Source: Spirilliplanes yamanashiensis
GTDB taxonomy: Bacteria > Actinomycetota > Actinomycetes > Mycobacteriales > Micromonosporaceae
Direction of reading: 5' to 3'
DNA length: 64,000 nt
Assembly (NCBI RefSeq): GCF_016863475.1
Contig: NZ_BOOY01000029.1
Coordinates: forward strand, 1-64,000
Position numbers and translations under genes: made by a program. Positions 29,488-42,294 of the stretch are shown in pieces (the stretch's first letter is position 1; each line of letters opens with the position of its first letter). Below the pieces are notes generated by a model. The model did no database searches and was not told the origin of the DNA. It worked only from the letters and a program-made list of their open reading frames with translations.

Positions 29488-31269
29488 GTGGCACGCAACG
29501 ACGAGGCGGATTCACGAGCCGCACGTTGGGAGAAGGAAGCCAACGATCTCTCCAGCCAGGTGGCGTTCCTCCAGGAGGAACTCGCACTGGTGCGGCGCAA
29601 GCTGACCGAAAGCCCCCGACACGTCCGGCAGCTCGAGGAGCGGCTCGCGGCGACGCAGGCGCAGCTGGCGCGGCTGTCCGAGAACAACGAGCGTCTCGTG
29701 GCCACCTTGAAAGAGGCCCGGACGCAGATCGTCACTCTCAAGGAAGAGATTGACCGCCTCGCCCAGCCGCCCAGCGGCTACGGCGTCTTCCTGGCCAAGC
29801 ACGAGGACGGCAGTGTCGACGTCTTCACGGGCGGCCGCAAGCTGAGGGTGGCGGTGTCCCCGTCGCTCGAGGTCGACGAGCTGCAGCGTGGGCAGGAAGT
29901 CCTGCTCAACGACGCGCTCAACGTGGTCGACGCGTTCGGTTACGAGCGGGTCGGCGAGGTCGTCCTGCTGAAGGAGATCCTCGAGAACCCGGACGGCGGT
30001 CCCGGTGACCGCGCCCTGGTCGTCTCGCACGCCGACGAGGAGCGCATCGTGCACCTCGCCGAGAGCCTCATCGGCTCGGTGCTGCGGGCCGGCGACTCGC
30101 TCATGATCGAGTCGCGGTCGGCGTACGCGTACGAGCGCATCCCGAAGAGCGAGGTCGAGGAGCTCGTCCTCGAAGAGGTGCCGGACGTCGACTACTCCGA
30201 CATCGGTGGCCTGCACTCGCAGATCGAGCAGATCCGCGACGCGGTGGAGCTGCCGTTCCTGCACGCCGACCTGTTCCGTGAGCACCAGCTCCGCCCGCCG
30301 AAGGGCATCCTGCTCTACGGCCCGCCCGGCTGCGGCAAGACGCTCATCGCCAAGGCGGTGGCGAACTCGCTGGCCAAGAAGATCGCCGAGCGGCAGGGCA
30401 AGGAGAAGCACACCAGCTTCTTCCTGAACATCAAGGGCCCGGAGCTGCTCAACAAGTACGTGGGTGAGACCGAGCGGCACATCCGCCTGGTCTTCCAGCG
30501 GGCGCGCGAGAAGGCCGGCGAGGGCACGCCGGTCATCGTGTTCTTCGACGAGATGGACTCGATCTTCCGCACCCGCGGCTCGGGCGTCAGCTCGGACGTG
30601 GAGAACACGATCGTCCCCCAGCTCCTCAGCGAGATCGACGGCGTCGAGGGTCTGGAGAACGTCATCGTCATCGGCGCCTCGAACCGCGAGGACATGATCG
30701 ACCCGGCGATCCTGCGGCCGGGCCGGCTCGACGTCAAGATCAAGATCGAGCGTCCGGACGCCGAGGCGGCCAAGGACATCTTCGCCAAGTACATCCTGGC
30801 CGGCCTGCCGCTCTCCGAGGACGACGTGGCCGAGCACGGCGGCGACAAGGACGCCACGGTGGCGGCCATGATCGAGGCCGTGGTCCTGCGCATGTACTCG
30901 GAGATCGAGGAGAACCGCTTCCTCGAGGTCACCTACGCCAACGGTGACAAGGAAGTCATGTACTTCAAGGACTTCAACTCCGGCGCGATGATCCAGAACA
31001 TCGTCGACCGCGGCAAGAAGATGGCCATCAAGGAGTTCCTCACCTCAGGACGCAAGGGCCTGCGGCTCCAGCACCTGCTGGACTCGTGCGTCGACGAGTT
31101 CCGCGAGAACGAGGACCTGCCGAACACCACCAACCCGGACGACTGGGCCCGCATCTCCGGCAAGAAGGGCGAGCGGATCGTCTACATCCGCACGCTGGTC
31201 TCCGGCGGCAAGGGCACCGAGGCCGGCCGGTCCATCGAGACGGCCAGCAACACGGGCCAGTACCTGTAA
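29488..31269 (+). CDS. arc: Proteasome-associated AAA ATPase ARC/Mpa
   Basis: 593-residue hexameric unfoldase (Mpa in mycobacteria) that recognises Pup and threads pupylated substrates into the 20S core. The N-terminal coiled coil is at about residues 10-80 (heptads through [20 protein letters not shown]) and captures Pup. Two OB-fold domains follow at about 90-230. The AAA module has Walker A GPPGCGKT near residue 278, Walker [13 protein letters not shown] and an arginine-rich second region around [15 protein letters not shown]. The C-terminus ends Gln-Tyr-Leu, the gate-opening tail that docks on the proteasome. GTG start with GGGGAGG upstream. It is monocistronic, followed by a strong terminator. 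Confidence 0.97.
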
Positions 31270-31397: not shown

Positions 31398-32789
31398 ATG
31401 ACCTCCGCCACCGCCCAGGACACGGCCGCCGCCGCACCCGCCCGCCCCGTCGCCCGGATGGCGTGGCTCGACGCCCTGCGCGGCTTCGCCGCCCTCGTCG
31501 TGGCCTACTTCCACCTGCAGACGTACGTGCTGGACAAGCCGTACGACCTGGTCTTCGCCGGCCGACTCGACCTCGGCCGCTACGGCGTGCTGCTGTTCTT
31601 CCTCGTCAGCGGCTACGTGATCATGATGTCGCTGGAGCGCTACGGCAGCCTGCGCCGCTTCTGGGTCGGCCGGATCTTCCGCATCTACCCGGCGCTGCTG
31701 CTCACCGCCGTGCTCATGCTGGTCGTCATCGCCGCCGGCGTCCGCCCGCTCAGCCGCTACTTCCGCGACGAGCCGGTCGCCGCCGTCCTCGGCCACGCCA
31801 CCATGCTGCAGGAGCTGCTCGGCGTCCCCAGCCTCGTCAACGTGTTCTGGACGCTGTCCTACGAGATGGTGTTCTACCTGGTCATCTCCGGGCTGTTCGT
31901 GCTCGGCTGGCACCGCCGCATCGCCTGGTGGGCCATCGGCCTGGCCGTGTTCTGCCTCGTCGCCGGCCGGTTCCTGCCGCGGGACCTGCTCAGCGGGGAC
32001 GACCTGCAGCACGTCACCGCCGCCGCCGTCGCCGTCACGCTCGTGCTGGCCGGCTCCGTCGCCGCGTACGTCAGCGGTCGCCGCTCCGCCGCCGTGGCCG
32101 CCGCCGCGGCCGGCGTCGGGATGCTGCTGCTGCCCGCCCTCAACGGCGCCGCCGCCCCCGACAGCCACGCCCCCGCCGGCTCCTGGCGGGCCCTGTCGTT
32201 CCTCACCGTCATGCTGGCCGGCACCGTCGTCTACGCCGCCCATCACGGCCGGATGAGCCGCCGCGCCGCCGCCGCCGTGCTCGGCACCGTGCTGGCCGTG
32301 CAGCTCGCCGTCGACTGGGTGCACACCCCGCAGCAGTGGCAGACCGCCGAGCAGGCCATGGGGCTGCGCCTGATCACCTGCACCACCCTGCTCGCCGTCG
32401 TCGCCACGTTCGCGCTCGGTTTCGCCCTGCGGCACCGGCGTGTGCCAACCTGGCTGGCGTGGCTGGGCCGGGTCAGCTACTCGATCTACCTGCTGCACCC
32501 GCTCGTCCGGGTGACCCTGCCGGAGCTGTGGCCGGGCGCCGACGACTACCCGTTCGCCGGCCAGCTCGCCGTCGGCGCCGTCTACCTCGCCGCCACCCTG
32601 CTGGCCGCGTGGGCGGCCTACCACCTCGTCGAGCGCCCCGGCCAGCGCCTCGGCAAGCGGGTGTCGGTGTGGCTCGACGCGCGGCTGCCCGCCGACCGCT
32701 GCGTGCGTACCCCCGCCGGGCCGGCGGCCCCCGAGGTGCCGACGGCGCGCACCGAGGCGCAGCCCCGCGACCTGCGTAGCCGGGTCTGA
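31398..32789 (+). CDS. Acyltransferase 3 family membrane protein
   Basis: 463 residues with about ten membrane segments. AT-3 signatures are seen: [20 protein letters not shown] at the start (with the conserved His), [19 protein letters not shown], and the Arg-rich [18 protein letters not shown]. Such proteins transfer acetyl or other acyl groups from the cytoplasmic side to cell-surface sugars (OafA/NodX type) or to secreted antibiotics. The ATG at 31398 lies 128 bp after the arc stop. It is not part of the conserved proteasome set, and no glycan genes flank it, so its substrate is unknown. Confidence 0.85.
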
Positions 32790-32884: not shown

Positions 32885-32968
32885 ATGAGCGAGCGCAGCG
32901 AGCGAATCAGGGGACTCAGCGCGGCGGTGCCTCATGGCGCCGCGGAGCGCAGCGGAGCGGCGGCATGA
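32885..32968 (+). CDS. Candidate 27-residue leader peptide of dop (MSERSER repeat)
   Basis: An ATG frame preceded by GGAGG encodes [16 protein letters not shown] and continues to 27 residues; its TGA overlaps the dop ATG as ATGA at 32965-32968. The nucleotide sequence is built of GAGCGAGCGCAGCGAGCG-like repeats (a second GCGGAGCGCAGCGGAGCGG copy sits next to it). As I remember, MSERSER leaders of this kind precede many genes in Micromonosporaceae. It probably couples translation of dop to its own translation, since no ribosome binding site stands directly before dop. Confidence 0.55.
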
Positions 32969-34482
32969 GCGTACGACGGATCATGGGGACCGAAGTCGAG
33001 TACGGCATCTCGGTGCCCGGCCAGGCCGGTGCCAACCCGATGGTGACCTCGTCTCAGGTCGTCAACGCCTACGGCGCCCGGCCCGAGCTCAACCGCGGCG
33101 GACGGGCGCGCTGGGACTACGAGGAGGAGTCGCCGCTGCGCGACGCGCGCGGCTTCACCTACTCGGGCGCCGCCTACGACCCCGCCGAGGCCCTGGCCGA
33201 CGAGGACCTCGGCCTGGCCAACGTCATCCTCACCAACGGCGCGCGGCTCTACGTCGACCACGCCCACCCCGAGTACTCGACGCCCGAGGTCACCACGCCG
33301 ATGGACATCGTGCGCTGGGACAAGGCCGGCGAGCTGATCATGGCCGAGGCGTCCCGGCGCGCCGCCACGATCCCCGGCACGCACCCGATCCACCTGTACA
33401 AGAACAACACCGACAACAAGGGCGCCAGCTACGGCGCGCACGAGAACTACCTGATGCGCCGCCAGACCCCGTTCGCGGACATCGTCGCGCACCTCACGCC
33501 GTTCTTCGTGACCCGCCAGATCGTCTGCGGCGCCGGCCGCGTCGGCATCGGCCAGGACGGCTCGGGCAGCGGCTTCCAGATCAGCCAGCGCGCGGACTTC
33601 TTCGAGGTCGAGGTCGGCCTCGAGACGACCCTCAAGCGCCCGATCATCAACACCCGCGACGAGCCGCACGCCGACGCCGACAAGTACCGCCGGCTGCACG
33701 TCATCATCGGCGACGCCAACCTGTCCGAGATCTCCACGTACCTCAAGGTCGGCACCACCGCCCTCGTGCTCGCCATGATCGAGGAGAAGGTGCTCACCGG
33801 CGAGCTCGGCATCGCCGACCCGGTCAGCGAGCTCAAGAACGTCAGCCACGACCCGTCGCTCAAGCACCTCATGCGGCTGCGCGACGGCCGCAAGCTCACC
33901 GCCCTCGACCTGCAGTGGGCGTACTACGAGCGGGCCCGCGAGTTCGTCGAGCAGCGCTACGGCGCCGACACCGACGACCAGACCGCGGACGTGCTCCAGC
34001 GCTGGGAGACGATCCTCACCAAGCTCGGCGACGACCCGTTCTCCTGCGCCGACGAGCTCGACTGGGTCGCCAAGCTGCGCCTGCTGGAGGGCTACCGGGA
34101 CCGGGAGAACCTGGGCTGGGGCTCGCACAAGCTGCAGCTCGTCGACCTGCAGTACTCCGACGTGCGCAAGGAGAAGGGCCTCTACCACCGCCTGGTCAGC
34201 CGCGGCTCCATGAAGACGCTGCTGACCGACGACGAGACCCGCCGCGCCATGACGGAGCCGCCGGAGGACACCCGCGCCTACTTCCGCGGCCGCTGCCTCG
34301 CCCAGTACGCCAGCGAGGTCGTCGCCGCCAGCTGGGACTCGGTCATCTTCGACGTCGGCCGCGAGTCGCTGGTCCGGGTGCCGATGATGGAGCCCGAGCG
34401 GGGCACGAAGAAGCACGTCGGCGCCCTGTTCGACAAGTGCCCGAGCGCCAAGGACCTCCTCGAGGTCATCACCGCCGGGTGA
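32965..34482 (+). CDS. dop: Depupylase/deamidase of Pup
   Basis: 505 residues. Dop deamidates the C-terminal Gln of Pup to Glu and removes Pup from substrates; it has the carboxylate-amine ligase fold shared with Paf[11 protein letters not shown] opens the fold. The Dop loop, an insertion absent from PafA, is present at about residues 37-75 ([18 protein letters not shown]). [19 protein letters not shown] contains the active-site Asp98, and [20 protein letters not shown] the nucleotide/Mg site. The family-typical C-terminal domain follows. Start ATG at 32965; the leader frame ends inside it. Upstream of pup, as in all pupylation loci of this type. Confidence 0.97.
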
Positions 34483-34595: not shown

Positions 34596-34811
34596 ATGGC
34601 AACCCGAGACACCGGCGGCCAGTCGCAGTCCGGAAAGTCGCGCAGCAGCGAAGAGGTCGAGGACGTCACCACCGAGGCGAACCCCGAGGTGGCCGAGCGG
34701 CACGCCGAGATCACCGAGGATGTCGACGACCTGCTCGACGAGATCGACTCCGTCCTCGAGGAGAACGCCGAAGAGTTCGTGAGGGGCTATGTACAGAAAG
34801 GGGGTCAGTAG
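34596..34811 (+). CDS. pup: Prokaryotic ubiquitin-like protein Pup
   Basis: 71 residues. Intrinsically disordered tag with the typical acidic helical second half (ITEDVDDLLDEIDSVLEENA binds the ARC/Mpa coiled coil) and the C-terminal VRGYVQKGGQ. It ends in Gln, so Dop must first deamidate it to Glu before PafA can ligate it to lysines. Lys68 allows poly-pupylation or self-modification. The ATG at 34596 is preceded by GGAGGAGGGGG. It lies five bases before the endonuclease VII-like gene, so both are probably on one transcript with prcB and prcA. Confidence 0.97.
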   Translation: MATRDTGGQSQSGKSRSSEEVEDVTTEANPEVAERHAEITEDVDDLLDEIDSVLEENAEEFVRGYVQKGGQ

Positions 34812-34816
34812 GGCAT

Positions 34817-35500
34817 ATGTCCGTTTCGCGGGGATCGGACGTCAAGCTCTGCCCCCAGTGTGGCCGCGCGCTGCCGGCCACCGCGTTCCACCGCAACGCC
34901 CGCCGACCCGACGGGCTGGCCTTCTACTGCAAGGCCTGCGCGGCTGAGCGGTCGGAGGCCAGCCGTCGGCGCCGCGGCATCGCGCCGCGGCCCCGCCGGC
35001 CGGAGCCGGCGGGGGAGGGCACGAAATGGTGCCCGGACTGCCGCACGACCAAGCCGCTGTCCGAGTTCGCCCGGACGAAGGCCCGGACGAAGGCCCGGGC
35101 GAGCGGCATCCACACCTACTGCCTGCCGTGCCACAACGCCCGGGGCCGTGAGTCCAAGCAACGGCTGCACGGCGGGTCGCGGGAGTACCACCTGCGCCGC
35201 CGCTACGGCATCGGCCAGGTCGAGGTCGACGAGCTCCTGGAGGCCCAGGGCGGGCGCTGCGCGATCTGCGGCCGGCCGGACCCGGAACACGTCGATCACG
35301 ATCATCGCACCGGGTGGGTGCGCGGGATACTGTGCTTCAACTGCAACGGCGGCCTCGGCCAGTTCCGGGACGACCCCGGCCTGCTCGGCGAGGCGCTCAC
35401 ATATCTGAAGGGAACCACGTGGCAGCGGGTTTTGATCCATCCGGGCGTCTTCCAGATGTGTTCACCAATGCGGGGACGTCCTCCTTCACGCAGTTCCTGA
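34817..35500 (+). CDS. Recombination endonuclease VII/HNH-like zinc protein in the proteasome operon
   Basis: 227 residues. Two N-terminal zinc-ribbon-like units: CPQCG with CKAC (about residues 14-42), and CPDC with CLPC (about 75-108). They are followed by an endonuclease VII/HNH domain: [20 protein letters not shown], then [18 protein letters not shown] (about 150-195). The DHDH residues and four Cys give the metal and catalytic site. The C-terminal 27 codons run into prcB, whose GTG lies 82 bp before this gene's stop. The ATG lies five bases after pup. Family members cut branched DNA (T4 EndoVII) or act as HNH nucleases in phages; a cellular role here is unknown. Not found in the mycobacterial proteasome operon. 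Confidence 0.85.
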
Positions 35501-36258
35501 CCCAGGCCATGCCCGAGCTGCTGCCCGGGCGGCGCCCCCTGCCGGTGGGCATGTCGGCCGACCTGGCGCCGCACGCCACGACGATCGTCGCGATCGTCAC
35601 CGCGGAGGGCGTGGTGATGGCCGGCGACCGGCGGGCCACCATGGGCAACCTCATCGCCAGCCGGGACATCGAGAAGGTGCACCCCGCCGACGCGCACTCG
35701 CTCATCGGCATCGCCGGAACGGCCGGCATCGGCATCGAGCTGATGCGGCTGTTCCAGGTCGAGCTGGAGCACTACGAGAAGATCGAGGGCATCGCGCTGT
35801 CGCTGGACGGCAAGGCGAACCGCCTGGCTGGCATGGTGCGCGGCAACCTCGGCGCGGCCATGCAGGGGCTCGCGGTGGTGCCGCTGTTCGCGGGCTTCGA
35901 CCTGGCGGCGGCCGACCCGGCGAAGACGGGCCGCATCTTCAGCTTCGACGTGGCGGGTGGGCTCTACGAGGAGACCGGCTACGACGCGATCGGCTCGGGT
36001 TCGCTGTTCGCGAAGTCGGCGCTGAAGAAGCGGTACCGGGCGGGGCTGTCCACGGCGGACGCGATCCGGCTGGCCGTCGAGGCGCTGTACGACGCCGCCG
36101 ACGACGACACCGCGACGGGCGGCCCGGACCTGACCCGCAAGATCTACCCGGTGGTCATGTCGGCCACCGCCGAGGGCACCCACCGGCTGACCGACGCGGA
36201 GGTGACGGCCGTCGCCGAGGCCGTCGTGGCCGCCCGCATGGAGAACCCGGGCGGCTGA
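35419..36258 (+). CDS. prcB: 20S proteasome beta subunit
   Basis: 279 residues with an N-terminal propeptide of 53. Autocleavage before Thr54 ([14 protein letters not shown]) would expose the catalytic N-terminal threonine of the peptidase. The fold follows with [19 protein letters not shown] (Lys and Asp of the active site) and [13 protein letters not shown] start at 35419 with GAAGGGA upstream. Its first 82 bp lie in a different frame inside the end of the endonuclease VII-like gene, a rare overlap that ties their translation. prcA follows after 53 bp. Confidence 0.97.
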
Positions 36259-36311: not shown

Positions 36312-37133
36312 GTGGCCATGCAGTTCTACGCATCGCCCGAGCAGGTCCAGCGGGACCGCTCGGAGTACGCCCGCAAGGGCATCGCCCGCGGCCGCAGCGC
36401 CGTGGTGCTCACCTACGAGGGCGGCGTGCTGTTCGTCGCCGAGAACCTCACCACGCTGCGCAAGATCAGCGAGATCTACGACCGCATCGGCTTCGCCGCC
36501 GTCGGCCGGTACAACGAGTTCGAGAACCTGCGCCGGGCCGGCGTGCGGATGGCCGACCTGAACGGCTACAGCTACGACCGGCGCGACGTGACCGGCCGCG
36601 GCCTGGCCAACGCGTACACGCAGACGCTGGGCGCGATCTTCACCGAGACGCAGAAGCCGTACGAGGTGGAGATCTGCGTGGCCCAGGTGGGCCCGGCGGT
36701 CGGCACGGACGAGCTGTACCGGATCACCTACGACGGTTCCGTGCAGGACGAGCCGGGCTTCATGGCGATGGGCGGGCAGGCCGAGGCCATCTCGGGCGTG
36801 CTGCGCTCCCGGCACTCCGAGTCGGCGTCGCTGGCGGACGCGCTGCGGCTGGCCGTGGAGGCGCTGGGCAGCGTCGGCGGCGAGAACGGCGCCACCCGCA
36901 CGCTGGGCCCGGACCAGCTCGAGGTGGCGTTCCTCGACCGCAAGCGCACCGGGCGCACGTTCCGCCGCATCAGCGGGGCGGCGCTGACGAGCCTGCTGGG
37001 CGGCGACGCGACGGCGGCGGAGGCCCCGGACGAGCCGGCGAAGACCCCGGCGCCGCCGGAGGGCAAGCCGACGGTGTCGGCGGCCTCGGCGGACCTGGAG
37101 GACCAGGCGAACGAGGACTTCCCGAAGAGCTGA
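36312..37133 (+). CDS. prcA: 20S proteasome alpha subunit
   Basis: 273 residues forming the outer rings and gate of the 20S core. [20 protein letters not shown] is the N-terminal gating helix, and the family core has [34 protein letters not shown] and [20 protein letters not shown]. The long acidic, Pro/Ala-rich C-terminus (about 235-273) is presumably disordered. The GTG at 36312 with AAGGAG upstream is used; an ATG follows two codons later. It is the last gene of the pup operon, ended by the large hairpin at 37164. Confidence 0.97.
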
Positions 37134-37453: not shown

Positions 37454-38812
37454 ATGGAACGGCGAATCTTCGGTCTCGAGACCGAGTACGGCGTCACATG
37501 CACCTACCGCGGTCAGCGGCGGCTGTCGCCGGACGAGGTGGCCCGCTACCTGTTCCGCCGCGTGGTGTCATGGGGACGGTCCAGCAACGTCTTCCTGCGC
37601 AACGGGGCCCGGCTGTACCTGGACGTCGGTTCCCACCCCGAGTACGCGACCCCCGAGTGCGACAACGTCGCCGACCTGGTGGCCCACGACCGCGCCGGCG
37701 AGCGCATCCTCGAGGGCCTGCTCGTCGACGCTGAGAAGCGCCTGCACGACGAGGGCATCGCGGGCGAGATCTACCTGTTCAAGAACAACACCGACTCGGC
37801 CGGCAACTCCTACGGCTGCCACGAGAACTACCTGGTGAGCCGGCACGGCGAGTTCGGCCGGCTGGCCGACGTGCTGATCCCGTTCCTGGTCACCCGGCAG
37901 CTGATCTGCGGGGCGGGCAAGGTGCTGCAGACCCCGCGCGGCGCGGTGTTCTGCCTGTCGCAGCGCGCCGAGCACATCTGGGAGGGCGTCTCCAGCGCGA
38001 CGACGCGCAGCCGCCCGATCATCAACACGCGCGACGAGCCGCACGCCGACGCGGAGCGCTACCGCCGGCTGCACGTCATCGTCGGCGACTCCAACATGAA
38101 CGAGGTCACCACGCTGCTGAAGGTCGGCTCGGCCGACATCGTGCTGCGGATGATCGAGGCCGGCGTGGTCATGCGGGACCTGACGCTGGAGAACCCGATC
38201 CGGGCGATCCGCGAGGTGTCGCACGACGTCACCGGGCGGCGCAAGATCCGGCTGGCGAACAACAAGGAGATCTCCGCGCTGGAGATCCAGCAGGAGTACC
38301 TGGCGAAGGCGACCGAGTTCGTCGAGCGGCGCGGCGCCGACCCGACGGCGAAGCGGGTCGTGGAGCTGTGGGGGCGGGTCCTCGCGGCCGTCGAGAGCGG
38401 CGACCTGGACCCGGTGTCCCGCGAGATCGACTGGGTGTCGAAGCTGAAGCTGATCGAGCGGTACCAGGCCAAGCACGACATGAGCCTGTCGCACCCGCGC
38501 ATCGCCCAGCTCGACCTGGCGTACCACGACGTGCGCCGCGGCCGCGGCCTGTACGCGCTGATGGAGAAGCGCAAGCAGGTCGACCGCATCGCCAACGACC
38601 TGCAGATCTTCGAGGCGAAGGAGACGCCGCCGCAGACCACCCGGGCGCGGCTGCGCGGCGAGTTCATCCGGCACGCCCAGGAGAAGCGCCGCGACTTCAC
38701 CGTCGACTGGGTGCACCTGAAGCTGAACGACCAGGCGCAGCGCACCGTGCTGTGCAAGGACCCGTTCCGCGCCTACGACGAGCGGGTGGAGCGGCTCATC
38801 GCGAGCATGTGA
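37454..38812 (+). CDS. pafA: Pup ligase
   Basis: 452 residues. PafA phosphorylates the C-terminal Glu of deamidated Pup with ATP and attaches it to substrate lysines. Carboxylate-amine ligase fold as in Dop but without the Dop loop: [30 protein letters not shown] (Asp57 is the active-site base) and [19 protein letters not shown]. The C-terminal domain ends [18 protein letters not shown] at 37454. The gene is immediately followed by a small membrane protein gene. Together with dop, pup and prcBA it makes the pathway complete. Confidence 0.97.
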
Positions 38813-40140: not shown

Positions 40141-41214
40141 ATGCCGAGTGACCGGGCGTCCGGCGGGGGCGCCGCGCGGGCCTGGCGCGCCGCCGACGCC
40201 GCCGTCGGCCTGTACGGCGACCCGGCCGTGCCGTGGAGCATCGTCGTGCGCGCCACGCTGGCCGAGCCGGTCGCCGCCGGCGCGGTCGCCGCCCGGCTGG
40301 CCGCGCTGACCGGGCGGCACCCGCACCTGGGGGCGGCGCCGGACGTCGCCGAGGTCGACGGCGACCCGGCCGGCCCCCTCGCCGCGTTCGCCGCCCGGGC
40401 GTACACCCCGGACCGTCCGCTGATCCGGGCCGCGGTCGCCGACGGCGGCCGGACGCTGCTGCTCGCCGCGCACCACGGCGCCGTCGACGGCCTCGGCCTG
40501 CTGGGGGTGCTCGGCGCCGCCCTCGACCGGCCGGTGACCAGCGGCGCCGCCGGGCTGCGCGCCCGGCCCGCCGTCCGGTCGTTCGCCGCCGGGGCGGTGC
40601 GCCGCGCCGCCGAGGCGCTGGTGGCCCCGCCGACCCGGCTGCGGGTGTGCCCGGACGGCGCCGGCGGCGGCGAGACCCTGGCCGAGCGGGCGGTCGCGGC
40701 GGCCCGGCTGGACACCGCCGCGCTGGTCGCCGCGACGACGGCCGCGGTCGCCTGGTGGAACGGCGCGCCGCCGCGCCGCGCCGTCGTGGCGGTCGGGGCG
40801 TCCCGGCGGCCGGGCAGCGACCCGGCGCCGGAGCTGCGGTCGGTGTACCTGCGGCTGCGCGTCCCGGCCGGCGCCGACCGGGCGGCGGCGCGCCGGCTGC
40901 TCGCCGCGGCGCGGCCCGAGCCGGACTTCCCGCCGTCGCGCAGCCGGGCGGTGGCCCTGGCCCGGCGCGCCCTCGCCGGCCGGCTGGGCGCCACCGCGCT
41001 GGTGTCCAACCTGGGCGCCGTCGACGCCGGCGGGGCCGTGTCGGCGCTGGCGTTCTACCCGCAGCCGAGCGGCCCGGCGGGCCTGGCGGTCGGGCTGGCG
41101 AGCGTCGGCGGCGCGGCGACCGTGACGATCCGGGCCCGCGGCCGGGACCTCGGCGTGGCCGCCGCCGACCGGCTGCTCGACCGGATCGTGGCGGGCCTGC
41201 GGGCGGGCGGCTGA
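40141..41214 (+). CDS. Condensation/acyltransferase-like protein with HHxxxDG motif
   Basis: 357 residues. The acyltransferase motif HHGAVDG is at residues 116-122 (LLLAAHHGAVDGLGLLG), the catalytic signature of condensation domains, PapA-type and alcohol O-acetyltransferases. The second half has a matching VSNLGAVDAGG (equivalent of the DFGWG-like region, not conserved) and a beta strand near FYPQPSG. The fold suggests ester or amide formation between two small molecules; no carrier protein gene is nearby. Ala-rich throughout but with regular coding bias. ATG at 40141. Divergent from the DUF3866 gene and in front of pafB by 75 bp. Confidence 0.65.
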   Translation: MPSDRASGGGAARAWRAADAAVGLYGDPAVPWSIVVRATLAEPVAAGAVAARLAALTGRHPHLGAAPDVAEVDGDPAGPLAAFAARAYTPDRPLIRAAVADGGRTLLLAAHHGAVDGLGLLGVLGAALDRPVTSGAAGLRARPAVRSFAAGAVRRAAEALVAPPTRLRVCPDGAGGGETLAERAVAAARLDTAALVAATTAAVAWWNGAPPRRAVVAVGASRRPGSDPAPELRSVYLRLRVPAGADRAAARRLLAAARPEPDFPPSRSRAVALARRALAGRLGATALVSNLGAVDAGGAVSALAFYPQPSGPAGLAVGLASVGGAATVTIRARGRDLGVAAADRLLDRIVAGLRAGG

Positions 41215-41289
41215 CGCCCCGGTCCGGAACCCCGGCGCGGGCTCACCCGTGCGGGTGCCGGGGGCCCGTGCAGGGCTATTGTCGTGGGC

Positions 41290-42294
41290 GTGTCGCGCAT
41301 CCGCACCGAGCGCCTGGTCAATCTGGTGATCTGCCTGCTGTCGACGCGACGGTTCCTGACCGCCGCGCAGATCGCCGCGACCGTGCCCGGCTACGAGCAC
41401 GACCCCGACGACCCGAAGGACCACGAGGCGTTCCAGCGCAAGTTCGAGCGGGACAAGGCCGAGCTGCGCGAGCTGGGCGTCCCGCTGGAGACCGGCACCG
41501 CCAGCGTGTTCGACAGCGAGCCCGGCTACCGCATCGCCCACCGCGAGTACGCGCTGCCCGACATCCCGCTCAAGCCCGACGAGGCGGCCGCCGTCGGCAT
41601 CGCCGCCCGGCTGTGGCAGCACGCCGGGCTGGCCGCCGCCGCGTCGTCCGGCCTGGCGAAGCTGCGCGCCGCGGGCGTCGACGTCGACCCGTCCGCCACC
41701 CTCGGCGTGGAGCCCGTCGTCACGGTCGACCCGGCGTTCGCGCCGCTCACCGCCGCCGCCCGGGAACGCCGCGCCGTCACGTTCCAGTACCGCACCCCGG
41801 AGGGCGACGAGCCGGTCGCCCGGCACCTGGAGCCGTGGGGCGTGGTGTGCTGGCAGGGCCGGTGGTACGTGGTGGGCCACGACCGTGACCGCGGCGCCAC
41901 CCGTTGCTTCCGGCTGTCGCGCATGGTCGGCGCGGTCAAGGCCACCGGGCGGCCGGGCGCGTTCACCCCGCCCGAGCAGGTCGACCTCATCAGCCACGTC
42001 GCGCACTACTCCGGGCCGGTCCCGACGGTCGGCCGGGCCACCGTCGTGGTCGCCCCGGGCCGGGCGGCCGGGCTGCGCCGCTGGGCCACCGAGACCCTGC
42101 CCGGCCCCGACGGCGACCGCCTGGTGCTGCCGTACGGCGACGTCGAGCGCCTCGCCGGCACTCTGGTCGGCTACGGCGCCGACGTGACCGCCCTCGACCC
42201 GCCGGAGCTGCGCGACGCCGTCATCCAGGCGCTGAAGGAGGTCGTGGCCCGCTACGACACCCGCGCCGACACCCCGGCTGAGGTCGCGTCGTGA
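41290..42294 (+). CDS. pafB: WYL-domain regulator PafB
   Basis: 334-residue transcriptional activator half of the PafBC complex, which controls the LexA-independent DNA-damage response in mycobacteria. The N-terminal winged HTH covers about residues 5-70 (RLVNLVICLLSTRRFLTAAQ), followed by the WYL domain (about 140-205; GVVCWQGRWYVVGHD with the conserved WYV, then RCFRLSRMVG) and the WCX helical C-terminus. GTG 41290 is taken; GTG 41284 two codons earlier is possible. pafC overlaps by four bases (GTGA). Confidence 0.93.
   Translation: MSRIRTERLVNLVICLLSTRRFLTAAQIAATVPGYEHDPDDPKDHEAFQRKFERDKAELRELGVPLETGTASVFDSEPGYRIAHREYALPDIPLKPDEAAAVGIAARLWQHAGLAAAASSGLAKLRAAGVDVDPSATLGVEPVVTVDPAFAPLTAAARERRAVTFQYRTPEGDEPVARHLEPWGVVCWQGRWYVVGHDRDRGATRCFRLSRMVGAVKATGRPGAFTPPEQVDLISHVAHYSGPVPTVGRATVVVAPGRAAGLRRWATETLPGPDGDRLVLPYGDVERLAGTLVGYGADVTALDPPELRDAVIQALKEVVARYDTRADTPAEVAS

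Follow-up and report, generated by a model that had tools for sequence, protein, structure and literature searches.

A stretch of 64,000 nucleotides of the Spirilliplanes yamanashiensis genome, referred to as the window, carries between pup and prcB a gene for an EndoVII-type nuclease, the first ~120 residues of which, comprising two zinc modules, are according to alignments and trees a cassette that has been swapped repeatedly between species. We see an even chance that the gene specifies an orphan, probably sequence-specific nuclease of the Hpy99I/F-CphI ('DHHRN') kind, which would have a switchable specificity, act in defence or as a selfish homing element and reside in the proteasome operon.

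The source genome comprises 6.5 Mb in 59 contigs, and the window was placed as sister to the Actinoplanes-like Micromonosporaceae in a tree of the prcB/prcA flank. The Pup-proteasome block of the window has the order Arc/Mpa, acyltransferase, Dop, Pup, nuclease, PrcB, PrcA and PafA, with a WYL/WCX regulator located later (Table 1). The Acyl_transf_3 gene breaks up this block between arc/mpa and dop, and the other genes scanned near the nuclease include a DUF3866 gene and one gene at 40141-41214 without a Pfam match. The ATG at 34596 was chosen as the start of pup according to our reading of the ribosome site, and the stop codon of pup is TAG at 34809-34811. The nuclease gene begins with the ATG at 34817, five bases after this stop codon, and ends with TGA at 35498-35500, its 3' end overlapping prcB by 82 bp in a different frame. 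The coordinates, the gap and the overlap match what an earlier note on this DNA had described, as does its placement of the nuclease within the pup-prcB-prcA operon, since the gene lies close after or overlapping pup, overlaps prcB and occupies an old, conserved position. With respect to the further statement that PafB and PafC are encoded nearby, a PafB-like regulator was the part recovered.

Table 1. Features of the Pup-proteasome region and of the nuclease gene in the window.
Feature	Position	Strand	Remarks
Arc/Mpa gene	29488-31269		within Pup-proteasome block
Acyl_transf_3 acyltransferase gene	31398-32789		between arc/mpa and dop
dop	32965-34482	+	PF03136 (Pup_ligase), E 8.4e-193; named Dop from gene order
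pup	34596-34811	+	PF05639, E 2e-31; C-terminal GGQ
Exchangeable cassette	34752-35179	+	borders approximate; from the 3'-terminal ~60 bp of pup into the nuclease gene, near codon 121
EndoVII/Hpy99I-like nuclease gene	34817-35500	+	227 aa, N-terminal type A; PF02945
Zinc module 1, residues 9-52	34841-34972	+	beta4-alpha; C12, C15, C38, C41; AlphaFold2 model and alignment
Zinc module 2, residues 69-118	35021-35170	+	beta4-alpha; C72, C75, C102, C105; AlphaFold2 model and structural superposition
EndoVII beta-beta-alpha-Me catalytic core, residues 121-198	35177-35410	+	Pfam, PDB profile match, alignment, AlphaFold2 model
Shine-Dalgarno-like GAAGGGA of prcB	35407-35413	+	within nuclease gene; read from sequence
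Nuclease/prcB overlap	35419-35500	+	82 bp; nuclease C-terminal extension versus PrcB N-terminus in different frames
prcB, proteasome beta subunit	35419-36258	+	GTG start; PF00227, E 9.5e-37
prcA, proteasome alpha subunit	36312-37133	+	PF00227, E 1.5e-18
pafA	37454-38812	+	PF03136 (Pup_ligase), E 1.2e-169; named PafA from gene order
WYL/WCX regulator, PafB-like	41284-42294		profile match

The deduced protein contains the two N-terminal zinc units (CxxC...CxxC) and the intact EndoVII/HNH core reported before, the latter represented by the motifs CAICG (148-152), HVDHDH (158-163) and CFNCN (173-177) and matching PF02945 with 82.7 bits (E 1.8e-23; curated cut-off 23.6). The zinc ligands C148, C151, C173 and C176 of the core and the residues D160, H161, H163, R169 and N177 are invariant in 21 of 21 aligned proteins; the roles of the corresponding EndoVII motif residues (CxxC, D-H-x-H, R, CxxC, N) are set out in PMC6083498. 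For the window protein, AlphaFold2 (mean pLDDT 79.9, pTM 0.54) predicts two beta4-alpha zinc modules (9-52 and 69-118), a beta-beta-alpha-Me core (121-198) and a low-confidence beta-hairpin (203-215) formed by the C-terminal extension that is encoded in the overlap. The model of a type B protein, representing the second of two N-terminal types (see below), resembles it, although module 2 received fewer strands (pLDDT 81.4, pTM 0.45). Given the two pTM values, the predicted arrangement of the domains is uncertain.

The Helicobacter pylori type II restriction endonuclease Hpy99I (PDB 3fc3, 3gox) is the best match to the nuclease both in sequence and in fold. The best sequence match in the PDB (E 4.6e-13) aligns profile positions 71-197 with Hpy99I 75-197, thereby covering module 2 along with the EndoVII-type beta-beta-alpha-Me core that is C-terminal in both proteins, whereas the match to T4 endonuclease VII (E 6e-9) comprises the core alone (profile 132-186). 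Foldseek ranked Hpy99I first for both models (type A, E 6.8e-4; type B, E 2.6e-4), with low TM-scores of 0.16-0.20 suggesting that the domain arrangement either is unlike that of Hpy99I or was badly predicted. The runner-up in both searches was the fission yeast Stc1 tandem zinc finger (2luy; E 0.013 and 0.0087), and the type B protein also showed a sub-threshold Pfam match to Stc1. A superposition with VIA-align placed residues 61-111 (module 2) on the N-terminal zinc region of Hpy99I (55-106; rmsd 3.1, 50 aligned residues) with a modest Z of 5.5, which is under the telling level of 8 and followed by an axoneme protein at 4.8, and the core was superposed on T4 endonuclease VII with Z 4.6-4.7 over 53-54 residues. 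The likeness to Hpy99I accordingly extends beyond the catalytic core. Residues 1-105 of Hpy99I are assigned to DNA binding and dimerization in PMC3765158, and by homology with this DNA-binding N-terminus the zinc modules of the nuclease are probably DNA-binding as well. In a PADLOC search 40 residues of the core matched a type II enzyme model with E 4.8e-9, PDC-M01B appeared with E 0.04-0.07, and the NCBIfam scan of the nuclease gave nothing over the cut-off.

EndoVII proteins fall mostly into two clades, one with a C-terminal motif that includes homing and restriction enzymes and one with an N-terminal motif that includes resolvases, according to PMC6083498. In the nuclease the motif is C-terminal, the core occupying residues 121-198 of 227 behind the two zinc modules, so that motif position, a feature of 'most' members of each clade in PMC6083498, would place it in the homing and restriction clade. 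T4 endonuclease VII (gp49) shares the catalytic core and PF02945 with the nuclease but carries the core at its N-terminus, and the comparison revealed neither an N-terminal motif nor a whole-length alignment with gp49, the sequence match being confined to the core.

The position of the gene is conserved among actinomycetes. In every one of the best 80 of 215 relatives ranked by similarity (Micromonospora, Actinoplanes, Catellatospora, Catenuloplanes, Verrucosispora, Hamadaea and others) the nuclease is preceded by pup and followed by prcB. A class-wide profile search revealed the order pup-nuclease-prcB in 28 of 29 further loci (L215-L243), two of the 29 belonging to Micromonosporaceae; in the exception, L218, prcB is absent from the locus and the prcB gene of the same genome was located on a different contig, next to the contig end. 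The occupation of the identical slot in several families of the class rules out a random or recent insertion, which the earlier note had named as an outcome that would speak against its view, and shows that the nuclease is a long-standing resident of the pup-prcB slot of actinomycetes. Close packing with prcB recurs as well and its form varies by lineage: if prcB begins at the start codon closest to the match, which was our choice, 19 of the 20 intact family copies overlap it by 82 bp and the remaining copy by 20 bp, 36 of 36 loci of a genus from a second family (g46, presumably Streptomyces) by 49 bp and six further loci by 4 bp, while seven loci of family f100 show no overlap and other values occur.

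Within this conserved slot the gene is frequently decayed or undetected. The nuclease profile matched 79 of 296 genomes of the class, PrcB being present in 237 of 296. When the full-length protein was searched against 41 genomes, namely that of the window and those of 40 relatives, 17 gave a match, which was full length in some, broken in others and in others again confined to the region shared with prcB. All 121 genomes of the family sample, which shares some members with the set of 80 relatives, have PrcB, and the pup-prcB interval was analyzed in 115 of them; among the six omitted genomes, one contig begins 86 bases upstream of prcB. These 115 Micromonosporaceae loci with pup and prcB comprise 20 with an intact nuclease gene (180 aa or more in an uninterrupted frame and a match scoring 150 bits or more), 36 with a relic (a score above 30.8 bits, the best of 570 shuffled intervals) and 59 in which the gene was undetected. 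Even some of the 20 intact copies are probably impaired, to judge from their sequences, one being without about 40 N-terminal residues and others without some of the zinc cysteines. Intact copies are distributed over 9 of 42 genera, six of which also hold relic or empty loci, and of 121 genomes of genus g46, 102 gave a match, which scored 136 bits or more in 48 and was a short fragment in many of the others. The comparison of the interval across Micromonosporaceae and other actinomycetes, which had been proposed as a check, therefore confirmed a shared slot but an intact gene in no more than 20 of 115 family loci, and the nuclease is not a core member of the Pup-proteasome system that is kept wherever pup and prcB are kept. 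A frame interrupted in sister strains had been named as a second adverse outcome; truncated or broken genes do occur in congeners of intact carriers, namely in the six mixed genera, which comes near to that outcome, and the window's own genus is represented by one genome in the sample. In one locus (L120 of genome G014) the pup-prcB interval measures about 717 bp without detectable similarity to the nuclease.

An alignment of the nuclease proteins revealed two N-terminal types, A and B, that occur inside single genera. Sliding DNA identity in 50-bp steps between two loci of one genus (L090 and L091) yielded values of 84-100%, mostly 96-100%, in the dop-pup flank, 32-64% from the pup stop codon to the middle of the nuclease gene and 98-100% in the last 190 bp before prcB. 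The same profile was obtained as a mean of 14 close pairs of different type, in which pup is 97-100% identical except for its last 60 bp (88% then 77%); identity falls to 42-61% in the first 270 bp downstream of pup, recovers to 68-74% between 300 and 240 bp upstream of prcB and reaches 90-100% beyond that point, whereas 18 close pairs of the same type showed a shallower dip (73-86%) in this stretch. The cassette borders given for the window in Table 1 were transferred from the identity profile of these 14 pairs among the relatives, along with silent divergence, and the exchanged tract seems to take in the end of pup (about 34752-34811 in the window).

The distribution of the two types was mapped on a tree of the prcB/prcA DNA flank with 80 rows, consisting of the window and 79 of the relatives' loci (L160 was omitted owing to its short flank). 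A pattern rule of our own assigned 76 of the 80 rows to type A (35) or type B (41), four rows with truncated N-termini being left untyped; since the relatives were picked by similarity, these counts are not population frequencies. The flank tree required 20 changes between A and B, at least 18 of them forced by well supported branches, and shuffled labels required about 25 on average, with 15 of 500 shuffles for B and 11 of 500 for A giving a value this low, which indicates that the label is not wholly random on this tree. A single change was sufficient on the trees built from either module or from the whole N-terminal half, compared with 17 on the tree of the core. Sister species of opposite type are Winogradskya humida (A) and W. 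consettensis (B) as well as Amorphoplanes auranticolor (A) and A. nipponensis (B). Other carriers are Micromonospora noduli (A) and Micromonospora sp. H61 (B).

Silent sites showed the same partition of the gene. In 32 pairs with a prcB dS below 0.15 the median dS was 0.16 for dop, 0.22 for pup, 1.11 for module 1, 1.01 for module 2, 0.08 for the core and 0.11 for prcB, the pairs sharing species and thus not being independent and very high values being saturated or capped at 3. Both modules exceeded the largest value of dop, core and prcB more than threefold in 24 of these pairs, at least one module did so in 26 and neither did so in 6. In genus g46, 25 pairs with a prcB dS of 0.15-0.3 gave 1.09 for the N-terminal half, 0.31 for dop, 0.50 for pup, 0.49 for the core and 0.25 for prcB; the core thus often differs too (dN 0.08-0.21) and the borders of the cassette are less sharp. 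In one pair of this genus (dop 0.06, prcB 0.05) the whole gene is divergent, with 1.39 for the N-terminal half and 0.90 for the core.

Relaxed constraint is ruled out as the cause of the divergence of the N-terminal half, because silent sites have diverged too and dN/dS is low. The median dN/dS of same-type pairs was 0.18 for the N-terminal half (1155 of 1415 pairs usable) and 0.16 for the core (1367 of 1415), and pairs with a dS below 0.6 in the N-terminal half gave 0.15 (28 of 29) and 0.10 (29 of 29), respectively. The intact copies are under purifying selection. An excess of silent divergence cannot be produced by relaxed protein constraint and argues that the N-terminal half was brought in by recombination; in terms of sequence divergence it has the character of an old, constrained and functional lineage acquired in this way and not of a decaying stretch. 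Within a type dN/dS is low, and the signal is one of deep exchanged lineages rather than of positive selection at individual sites, which counts against the preferred explanation.

Two candidate donors of the cassette were considered. A second EndoVII-type gene of 146 aa is located at 79750-80190 of the same contig, about 44 kb downstream and beyond the window; with 42% identity over query positions 70-200 this paralogue is too distant and was rejected. Phage genes annotated as 'endonuclease VII / HNH', such as gp268 of Streptomyces phage Spilled, in some cases match query positions 9-197 and thus have the layout of two modules and a core, and PHROG 2633 matches positions 66-200 with E 5.7e-44. 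The phage matches listed with at least 80% coverage are 28-32% identical to the nuclease, 2 of 1670 phage records fall into the identity band of 60-80%, and for the viral contig loci, of which the best 80 of at least 544 were kept, identity is 29-54%, so that no close match to the cassette was met among the phage matches listed (30 of 1670) or among the best 80 viral contigs.

With respect to known systems, the nuclease differs from Hpy99I in its location within the proteasome operon of actinomycetes and in its exchanged N-terminal half. Moreover, 12 of 13 Helicobacter homologues of Hpy99I adjoin a methylase according to PMC6083498, whereas no methyltransferase was found among the genes checked at 29.5-42.3 kb of the window, and for this reason the nuclease is not classed as a member of a restriction-modification system. 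The F-CphI homing endonuclease of cyanophage S-PM2 and the DHHRN family share the catalytic residues and the C-terminal EndoVII motif (PMC6083498); F-CphI is phage-encoded and associated with an intron, whereas the nuclease is chromosomal, confined to one slot and under purifying selection. The exchange itself has an analogy. Target-recognition domains of HsdS in type I restriction are exchangeable by recombination, and the nuclease would resemble them in having a specificity module that is recombined between conserved flanks; it differs in being a single chain of another fold without modification or translocation subunits. The recognition site of Hpy99I is CGWCG, which occurs 847 times in the window, so that an active, unprotected cutter of CGWCG is not plausible. 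In the window, the lowest representation among 4- and 6-base palindromes with enough expected counts was observed for CTAG (15 versus 33.9 expected, 0.44), AGGCCT (3 versus 14.9 expected, 0.20) and AGCGCT (0.36), counts from this one stretch that are too few to point to avoidance of a recognition site.

Several other explanations of the locus have to be weighed. A selfish homing endonuclease would spread by cutting alleles that are without the gene or carry the other cassette, repair then copying the gene in; the exchange of the cassette would be a trace of gene conversion and the fossil genes the decay phase of a homing cycle. The catalytic motif and its C-terminal placement in F-CphI (PMC6083498), the single fixed site with patchy presence and parallel decay (36 relics in 115 loci) and the extension of the exchanged tract into the last 60 bp of pup, as in co-conversion, are consistent with this explanation, but a homing gene is not usually kept under strong purifying selection for so long, and no filled/empty site pair indicating a fresh invasion was met among the loci compared; we regard homing on its own as rather unlikely. 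A modification-dependent, Type IV-like restriction enzyme, whose modules would read modifications of foreign DNA and whose switching would track those of phages and plasmids, accounts for the absence of a methyltransferase and for self-safety, and one of the weak VIA-align rows obtained with the core is EcoKMcrA (Z 4.5), which is modification-dependent. This row, however, reflects the shared HNH fold only, and the scanned libraries (Pfam, PADLOC, NCBIfam) contained no match to a modification-reading domain, which leaves the explanation improbable.

The earlier note had considered plausible a link between pupylation and DNA repair or processing, taken here as a junction-resolving or repair nuclease that is co-expressed with the proteasome and tied to the PafBC DNA-damage response. 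The operon position and the translational overlap fit such a role, but the nearest solved relative is a restriction enzyme and not a junction resolvase, and the EndoVII core is C-terminal as in most members of the endonuclease clade (PMC6083498). Two pupylation reviews do not mention a nuclease in their text. The claim that the nuclease must work with the proteasome is not supported: 95 of the 115 family loci have pup and prcB but a decayed or undetected nuclease gene. Exchange of the N-terminal half between species is expected of a specificity module and not of a housekeeping repair partner, and a repair partner of the proteasome should stay with pup and prcB and be inherited with the flanks. 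We consequently consider a repair role distinctly improbable; exchange, loss and the lack of a methyltransferase among the genes checked fit an orphan nuclease instead. A role in cis, by which translation of the gene would carry ribosomes to the internal prcB start and set the level of PrcB with the nuclease activity being incidental, could draw on the prcB start and Shine-Dalgarno-like sequence inside the nuclease gene and on overlaps of 82, 49 or 4 bp that recur across lineages. Most sampled relatives nevertheless have prcB without an intact nuclease, some lineages are without an overlap and the catalytic residues, which are unneeded for a function in cis, are invariant in 21 of 21 proteins, making this role very improbable.

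The orphan nuclease with switchable specificity that we prefer could operate as follows. The two N-terminal zinc beta4-alpha modules would bind DNA and select the target, and the C-terminal EndoVII core would cut it. Recombination between species would replace the cassette from the end of pup to about codon 121, the core and the flanks staying in place, whereby a lineage could switch its target specificity in a single step. The nuclease may restrict foreign DNA or drive its own allele, and selection would favour switching and tolerate loss. The proteasome operon would serve as a translated safe harbour that may limit the level of the nuclease; its control by co-translation and proteolysis, hinted at by the operon, is speculation. 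In a bolder form, to which we attach little belief, the pup-prcB interval would be a hidden specificity-switching locus, in which the recognition half is traded under frequency-dependent selection by phages, plasmids or rival alleles and in which co-translation and degradation by pupylation and the proteasome provide the control that is otherwise exerted by a methyltransferase.

The Pup-proteasome locus has been studied extensively, yet the text of two pupylation reviews is silent on the nuclease: without the figures, it does not contain the word 'nuclease' even inside other words, and an early pupylation paper has no word beginning with 'nuclease' or 'endonuclease'. In the open-access literature no paper was found in which endonuclease VII appears together with both pup and prcB, or together with Micromonospora, in agreement with the earlier statement that a link between pupylation and a nuclease had not been described, and subscription papers may contain an earlier mention. 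Papers that pair endonuclease VII with the proteasome look unrelated by title among those listed, many of them apparently concerning endonuclease VIII, and the only one that also refers to actinobacteria is a species description. If correct, the preferred reading would mean that antibiotic-producing actinomycetes possess an additional system for cutting DNA, an orphan one whose specificity can be switched. It could then have a bearing on the poor uptake of foreign DNA by some of them and would provide natural pairs of A and B sister species for learning what zinc beta4-alpha modules recognise. It would also raise the question whether the proteasome restrains a dangerous nuclease. A gene presumably in the same slot is SCO1645 of S. 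coelicolor, which we take to sit between pup and prcB.

A variation of the architecture was observed in genus g348, where the pup-prcB slot of five loci (L228, L231, L232, L234 and L239) is occupied by a single frame of ~310-370 aa with two EndoVII cores; in L231, the one locus scanned with Pfam, two EndoVII stretches were recovered. A re-invasion of the slot by a second copy had been suspected from two consecutive matches and was discarded in favour of a fusion or duplication, since all five loci show one frame. The two cutters on one chain may represent a single-chain dimer.
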